Part shown: piece after piece, positions 33,185 to 35,128 of the stretch
How the letters are laid out: every line of letters begins with the position of its first letter
How positions within the stretch are numbered: position 1 is the stretch's first letter
Assembly (NCBI GenBank): GCA_903848645.1
Contig: CAINGU010000082.1
Coordinates: forward strand, 186,001-250,000
Reading direction: 5' to 3'
Length of the DNA stretch: 64,000 nt
Source of the DNA: an uncultured cyanobacterium
GTDB lineage: Bacteria > Cyanobacteriota > Cyanobacteriia > Cyanobacteriales > Nostocaceae
Position numbers and translations under genes: made by a program
Notes under the pieces: generated by a model
What the model saw: only the letters and a program-made list of their open reading frames with translations
Told to the model about the DNA's origin: nothing
The model's database searches: none

Positions 33185-33322
33185 TATTTGGTTAGTTGTC
33201 CCGGATTTCCTGCCCAGATTCTCAAAACTGATAAAACTTGGCGTTGCTAATAGTGCCATATTATGCAATGCCAGAATTTTTGATTTATTTGTATCCCCTC
33301 AATATATCGGGGAAAGAGTTAT

Positions 33323-35034
33323 TCAGGCATCCATGACAAACCAAAAGAATTGAGAGCAGATTTTTCCCGAATAATAATTGCCTTCATAGGGAATATTCCC
33401 AACCTGAGAAATCCGGTCACGGATATATTCAAAAAAACTGATCCCCAACTGACGAGTAGTAGCAACAAGAGACATAAAAGTATCCCAAGCCTGAGTCCCC
33501 TCAACAGTTTGAGTGGCATAACTAATATTACGTCGTTGCACCATCGTCCTAGCAGCTAATTCCGCCGGATTATTGTGCAAAGGCAATTCAGGATGCTCTA
33601 ATACTAAAAGCAACTCCGAAATTTTCATCCGTGTTAATCGTTTTCGCTCATCCAACTGTTGATAACCACTTTCTGTAGAAAAAAGCGTCCAAAATTCTGA
33701 CTTAAGTTCGTCAGCTTGCTCCTGACAAGGAGAATCTCGATAAACTAATAATTTCCGATAATATTTCCAGAAATCATCCAGAAAATCTTTTAAAATCGTT
33801 TGATGACAAGCAATAAACGGACTTAACTTTTTATAATGTCGTCCCTCATGCACCCAACACAAAGCGATATTATCAGTCAATAACTTGAATTGGGGAGCAT
33901 CATCACAGACGAGAGTTTGCACCACTGGCCAATCAGTTTGTTGATGATAGAAGGCAATAGCTGCGGCTTCCATGATTCGAGTTCGTTGTTGAGAACCCAG
34001 TTTAGGTAGATAGGTATCCAGTAGAGTATTAAACTGTTCAGAGTTCAACACAGTCTCTTGCGGTAATAGTTTGAGAGCGTCTTGATATTTATTTGGTAGT
34101 GGGAAATTTCTCAGCAACTCACTGGTCAGTTGATTGAGAATAAACTCCAATTCTTTGTTATTCTGCAAACCTTTGAGTACAGTCAATCGGTCTTTCTTGG
34201 GAGTTGTCAAGTAGACTGTATATAAAGGGTTACAGATGACATTGGTAGTATGGTTGACCCCACCAACGCGGGCAGCAGTTTGGTCAAAGTGTTGCCAAGG
34301 ACTGCTCTCTAGTCCCGATAAATATACTTCTGTTTTCTCCGTTTCAAAATCAGCATGGTTTTTAATCAGTAGATTAGATAAATACCCCGCTGACATGGAA
34401 ATACCAATATCCTCTAAAAACTCTAATAACTTGCCTTGGGTCATGTTGCCCCCGTAGTACAAGCTGATAACTAAGGTTTTTATTCCCGGTCCGAATTCTC
34501 CTTCGTAACCGCAAGGCAGTTCTGCTAAATAGGTTTTCTTTTCTAAGGGTGAGTAGTATTTCTCTTTCCGGAATAGTACATTGTCGGTTGTTAGGATGAT
34601 GTCTTGGACGATTACTTCTTCATACCCTTTAAACTTTGCGTCTGCTGGTAGTTTGTCTTGGGGGTATTCTAATATTTCTTCTCTGTTTATTTTAATGGCT
34701 TGATTTTTACTGCCCTTGGAGTGCTGTTTTGGGGTTTTTCTTTCTTGTTCTGATAGCGTAGCGTGGCGTAAGCCATTGAGTGCTTATTCTCAAACCCTTT
34801 CTTATTCTTGGCTTTTATGTCTGGCTGACCAAGTTCAACCTTCAAGCGGTTGTTTTCATCTTTTAACCGTTGATTTTCTAACTCTAAGCCTTTGACTTTT
34901 AATTCTAATTGCTCTATTAGGTTCAGTAATACCTCTACTGTATGACGCATTGATTCGTCTGCAATCCCTTTTGGCTCGATGGTTTGCAGTAAATCTGATA
35001 TTGATTTGTCACTCTCAATAATTTTTTGTGTCAT
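33323..35034 (-). pseudogene. IS66-type transposase (single-ORF ISBst12-like), frameshifted
   Basis: Reads as ORF 34687-35034 (N-term coiled coil) and ORF 33323-34462 (catalytic part: VCDDAPQFKLLTDNIALCWVHEGRHYKKL..NNPAELAARTMVQRRNISYATQT). Correct frame recovered by hand: EQERKTPKQHSKGSKNQAIKINREEILEYP. Confidence 0.88.
34751..34776. mobile_element. 26-bp insertion (23-bp core + apparent 3-bp TGA duplication) inside the IS66 transposase
   Basis: tgatagcgtagcgtggcgtaagccat|tga; removing 26 bp restores the transposase frame. Confidence 0.75.
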
Positions 35035-35128
35035 GTCTCCTATTCTATGACACTGTGTGTACCTCGTTGCACTTATTTTCCTCTGTTACCCCTACTTATT
35101 GAGCCGATACATTTATTTCACGTTTATT

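Follow-up and report, generated by a model that had tools for sequence, protein, structure and literature searches.

Our analysis of a 64,000-nucleotide stretch of DNA (the window) shows that an IS66 transposase gene within it has been broken by a genuine, precise insertion of an element of the small dispersed repeat (SDR) type. The repeat inserts as exactly 23 bp, in a fixed orientation and 3' of a Y-G-A motif, in many unrelated contexts, of which the IS66 gene is one.

A 23-bp insertion in an IS66 transposase gene

The inserted repeat, TAGCGTAGCGTGGCGTAAGCCAT, lies at 34754..34776 on the plus strand, with a chance expectation of 0, and was delimited from its copies in the genome, from empty IS66 homologues and by pairwise alignment. 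Directly 5' of it is the target half-site CTGA (34750..34753, +; consensus Y-G-A from the flank tallies), and on its 3' side is TGAG (34777..34780, +), which begins with T, whereas 95% of copies are followed by A. The sense strand of the repeat is opposite to the transposase gene, the repeat being on the plus strand and the gene on the minus strand. The IS66 element itself covers approximately 33285..35110 (-), as judged by homology to copies in related genomes with 91-93% identity. The N-terminal part of its transposase gene (34687..35034, -) is read through the repeat into the wrong frame and stops at 34687; the rest of the transposase frame (DDE_Tnp_IS66, PF03050; 33323..34783, -) continues in a different frame, running from 34783 to 33326, and is cut off from its own start by the insertion. 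Relatives L052 and L054 have a single uninterrupted 580-codon frame by frame comparison, bearing out the frameshift that the first-pass annotation of this DNA had ascribed to the insert. An extra C at 33385 (-) relative to all four relatives examined, which alters the C-terminal end, is a second lesion; together with the 23-bp insertion, it leaves this IS66 copy with two frameshifts.

Pairwise alignments to the full-length relatives L052, L053, and L054 place an exact 23-bp insertion at 34754, and with a fourth relative (L055) the same insertion comes out displaced by one base. The insertion noticed in the first pass is thus real, and its size is 23 bp rather than the 26 bp then given, a figure that had counted in one pre-existing TCA. 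The insert is missing from 13 out of 13 homologous IS66 loci of other genomes, down to 66% identity, and the filled IS66 site occurs in a single genome; the alignment of related IS66 copies called for earlier therefore yielded uninterrupted versions and no homologue that carries the insert. On the minus strand the closest empty homologues read CTCATCAGA; the site is CTC-ATCAGA, i.e. an unbroken TCATCA. Since TGATGA (CTGA|TGAG, the bar marking the insertion point) is already present in these empty homologues, no target bases were duplicated: the TCA on both sides of the insert reflects the ancestral TCATCA and not a target-site duplication, and the 3' flank TGAG, found in empty sites too, is not a duplication either. 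The 3-bp TCA duplication proposed from the sequence alone is accordingly rejected, both by the 13 empty loci and by the pairwise alignments.

Copy number and distribution

A search of the whole genome (5.4 Mb, 119 contigs) returned 62 copies of the repeat at ≤ 3 mismatches, 7 of them exact, and 0 for the reversed control. The repeat is thus dispersed, as had been anticipated, and its copies elsewhere, together with the uninterrupted IS66 relatives, uphold the view that a mobile element was here hit by a tiny one. With the three loop positions left free, the core pattern occurs in 38 of 150 sampled genomes, including all 16 Dolichospermum genomes (genus inferred), which carry 10 to 142 copies each; most of the large Nostocaceae genomes in the sample are without it, and other cyanobacteria and one viral contig hold scattered single copies. 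The viral copy, at 1577-1598 of the IMG/VR contig L269, lies in the context TGTCTGA|ATCAGGAT. A length of 23 nt and 62 copies place the repeat among SDRs, defined as 21-27 nt long and scattered in many copies over the genome of a heterocystous cyanobacterium, and the comparison of filled with empty sites supplies the recent mobility expected of them. The first-pass comparison with the small dispersed repeats of Nostoc is therefore right as to the kind of repeat; the host here is not Nostoc but probably Dolichospermum.

Insertion boundaries and target

Filled and empty loci elsewhere, compared with gaps allowed, give an insertion of exactly 23 bp with zero duplication (a script value of -1, for a window of 25 letters) in 49 of 73 copies and 16 of 24 contexts; for the other 8 contexts the best 'empty' homologue gave no clean zero, which we attribute mostly to poor alignment. 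Examples of 23-bp insertion without duplication are TTGTCTGA|ATCAGGAT, GGGAATGA|ATTCCC, GCTGA|AAAAGTC, CTGA|ATAAACC, and TTGTAGCCTA|AGTTGAC, among others. The target is strand-specific, Y-G-A|A, with insertion usually between the two A's: among 190 distinct copies, 185 have Y at -3, 177 have G at -2, 170 have A at -1, and 181 have A at +1. Counted conservatively, over 38 context clusters, G at -2 is seen in 33, A at -1 in 30, and A at +1 in 35. At the IS66 site T stands at +1 instead of A. Of two genomes that share a palindromic target, one (L143) has the element there in one orientation and the other (L044) in the reverse, both times 3' of CTGA.

Several contexts hinted at a preference for the hairpin loops of palindromes, a candidate that we dropped because the palindrome-centre enrichment over the 38 clusters is not significant (p = 0.08). 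A comparison of five loci (L001, L022, L029, L030, and L273) shows a different 23-nt sequence, CTTGTACTGAGCTTGTCGAAGTA, in the loop of a palindrome; in L001 the palindrome is empty (GCGGGCAAGA|TGCCCGC), and the 23-nt repeat within CTTGTACTGAGCTTGTCGAAGTA within the palindrome makes a triple nesting. Arrays, too, receive insertions. In L280, L285, L292, and L304, GTAG-tagged REPs of 24 nt (GTAGGGGCGCAGGGCCTGCGCCCA) are apparently cleanly inserted in arrays of the octamer CTCCTGAA, which take the 23-nt repeat as well, and the GTAGGGGCGCAGGGCCTGCGCCCA insertions lie near the same CTGAA motif. At G005 C1:5475890-5475974 and G010 C1:670761-670845, three repeats stand in tandem with a 31-bp period, equal to the repeat plus one octamer, probably ACTCCTGA; such tandem runs apparently arose from insertions into successive array units. 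The repeat also clusters in arrays of a TTGTCTGAATCAGGAT element, with 7 copies in L166, 5 in L203, and 4 in L181, the last array having VapC-like genes around it and a RAYT close by.

Two adjacent minihairpins

The first-pass description of the insert as a GC-rich imperfect palindrome misses the structure: the insert consists of two adjacent minihairpins, one with a GNA loop and one with a GNNA loop. Minihairpin 1, GC-GTA-GC (34756..34762, +), belongs to the class GC-GNA-GC, with N being T, C, A, or G among the copies; minihairpin 2, TGGC-GTAA-GCCA (34764..34775, +), belongs to the class C-GNNA-G, with variable loop N and stem variants that are mostly paired. In a tally of 61 of the 62 copies from the same genome, 74 out of 103 minority letters fall at position 6 (N in GC-GNA-GC) and positions 16 and 17 (both N's in GGC-GNNA-GCC); the p value for this concentration of variation in the loops is about 1e-42, or 1e-11 when computed on distinct variants. 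A search with the loops left free retrieved 699 copies in 14 genomes, and GNA and GNNA are kept in about 630 of these (about 90%; the 630 comes from a pattern shortened by one base). Of seven stem-2 variants, five are still paired, two of them by changes on both sides. The loop edges G and A are fixed, both inner bases vary freely, and the commonest second loop is GTTA. Loops of the GNA and GNNA kind on at least two G-C pairs form extraordinarily stable, nuclease-resistant DNA minihairpins (PMC4686876). Given that GTTA is not GNRA as RNA, and that the loop pattern matches the DNA GNNA class, we infer that a DNA strand is the functional form. Among the fetched loci, a search for other repeats of two-hairpin design returned none beyond the same 23-nt family.

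A proposed single-stranded DNA route and its alternatives

We give an even chance to the reading that the insert represents a 23-nt, non-autonomous repeat of the SDR kind, moved in trans as folded single-stranded DNA to YGA targets. What moves would be one strand of DNA in which the two very stable minihairpins have formed; these would both protect the strand and act as a recognition signal. An enzyme acting in trans would join this strand to single-stranded target DNA after YGA, in the manner of Y1 HUH transposases of the IS200/IS605 and REP/RAYT kind. The target in the IS66 case was CTGA|TGAG on the plus strand, the transposase gene being on the minus strand. Insertion of IS200/IS605 elements generates no target duplication. 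The repeat behaves in the same way, with zero duplication and insertion 3' of a fixed short motif; counting against the single-strand reading, at 23 nt it is smaller than the ends of known IS200/IS605 elements. The transposases of that family bind DNA hairpins of 20-25 nt and pick sites beside a short target (PMC6006769).

The genome encodes six Y1 proteins. Two of the six, an IS200-type TnpA (L270) and a RAYT (L273), were followed across the 150 genomes, and their distribution does not match that of the repeat: three genomes with 45-75 copies (G004, G008, and G009) are without both proteins at E ≤ 1e-30, and repeat-free genomes possess a TnpA of the L270 type and a RAYT of the L273 type. These two transposase families, missing in repeat-rich genomes and present in repeat-free ones, are thus rejected as the mobiliser. 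A bias in orientation relative to the replication strand, a feature of single-strand transposition of the IS200/IS605 type, was not found (p = 0.18 in G008 and, among the copies listed there, p = 0.73 in G005); an apparent bias proved to be an artefact of hit listing and was gone when the reverse pattern was added. These results too count against the single-strand reading, as do the T at +1 of the IS66 site, the palindrome-centre result, and the 8 contexts that gave no clean zero.

Elhai et al. in 2008 reportedly favoured an RNA intermediate for SDR movement, in which a folded RNA would be reverse-transcribed and then inserted. Such a route would likewise suit structured elements, hairpin 2 would fold as RNA too, and neither of the two Y1 DNA transposases traced follows the repeat; we nevertheless regard it as fairly unlikely here, since the commonest second loop would become GUUA, which is no GNRA tetraloop, and since RNA from the bottom strand would have a UNNC loop. 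We know of no stable RNA loop of the UNNC type. The fixed G and A edges with free inner bases are, moreover, what the DNA GNNA class allows (PMC4686876). An account with no dedicated enzyme, in which a stable DNA minihairpin fragment is captured during break or replication repair (by template switch or end joining), would explain the missing target duplication and the many insertions within repeats, and the stability and nuclease resistance of GNA and GNNA loops would allow such a fragment to survive; but the ends are exact at 23 bp across unrelated contexts and the YGA|A target is strict, which is more specificity than random repair would lead one to expect, and we think this account unlikely.

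That the repeat is a classical REP family, cognate to a RAYT of the same genome, is suggested by the RAYT gene in L273, which has a copy of the repeat about 40 bp before its start codon, and by RAYTs of another type that lie 137-429 bp from copies at three loci. The REPs that flank those RAYTs are, however, other palindromes, with the L273 copy nested within one; the GTAG tag is not conserved, the repeat having GNAG with all four bases at N; and the L273 RAYT is missing from repeat-rich genomes. We therefore consider a cognate REP very improbable and largely refuted, and set aside RAYT adjacency as a sign of one, the genes being only nested or chance neighbours. The presence of the filled IS66 site in a single genome would also fit the loss of an older sequence from the relatives, or an error of assembly, an explanation with next to no chance of being correct given the 13 homologues without the insert and the recurrence of the same 23-mer at unrelated loci.

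Relationship to SDR5 and other known systems

In a search for HIP1-embedded versions, the arrangement GCGAT[CGCGNAGCGTGCCGNAGGCAAT]CGC was found in two more distant genomes, and variants of CGCGNAGCGTGCCGNAGGCAAT occur in plasmids of Nostoc, Fischerella, Gloeocapsa, and Planktothrix. This HIP1-embedded cousin of the repeat is 22 nt long, has the hairpins GC-GNA-GC and GCC-GNA-GGC, and is found in Nostoc-like genomes; an exact HIP1-embedded copy of the 23-nt core (HIP1 being GCGATCGC) was not found in the 150 genomes. SDR5 is located between nucleotides 3 and 4 of HIP1 (PMC4390886), and because of its embedding in HIP1 the 22-nt cousin is probably SDR5 of Elhai et al. 2008. If so, the two repeats share the first hairpin and spacer, GC-GNA-GC GT, a second G-C hairpin, the size class, and precise insertion, and they differ in that SDR5 has GCC-GNA-GGC, sits in HIP1, and is 22 nt long, whereas the 23-nt repeat has GGC-GNNA-GCC and sits at YGA|A: the central base pair of stem 2 is inverted and the two loops are one base apart in length, hence 22 versus 23 nt. 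For matching with the eight SDR families of Elhai 2008, the sequences are TAGCGNAGCGTGGCGNNAGCCAT and CGCGNAGCGTGCCGNAGGCAAT.

Like REPs and REPINs with their RAYT (TnpA_REP), the repeat is dispersed, tiny, hairpin-forming, and non-autonomous, and REPs are found with it in the same arrays; unlike them, it is without a GTAG/GTGG tag and has two minihairpins instead of one stem. A cognate RAYT was not found for it, the RAYT genes examined being flanked by other palindromes. With the ends of IS200/IS605 elements (IS608, ISDra2) it shares the placement of insertions 3' of a short target and the likely use of small DNA hairpins as signals (PMC6006769), but its whole length is 23 nt, it contains no gene, and it lacks distinct left and right ends.

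Implications

We suggest, tentatively, that a 23-nt unit of two tandem minihairpins moves as single-stranded DNA to YGA|A and is possibly the smallest DNA-only mobile element, of a design that may be common to at least two families. To our knowledge, the multiplication of repeats of 21-27 nt in cyanobacterial genomes has gone unexplained since 2008. The exact boundary, the zero duplication, the short strand-specific target, and the DNA-minihairpin loop pattern now make the question of their mobilisation testable at the bench, and movement as single-stranded DNA, suggested by the shape of the repeat and its insertion pattern, would help to explain how such tiny elements spread.
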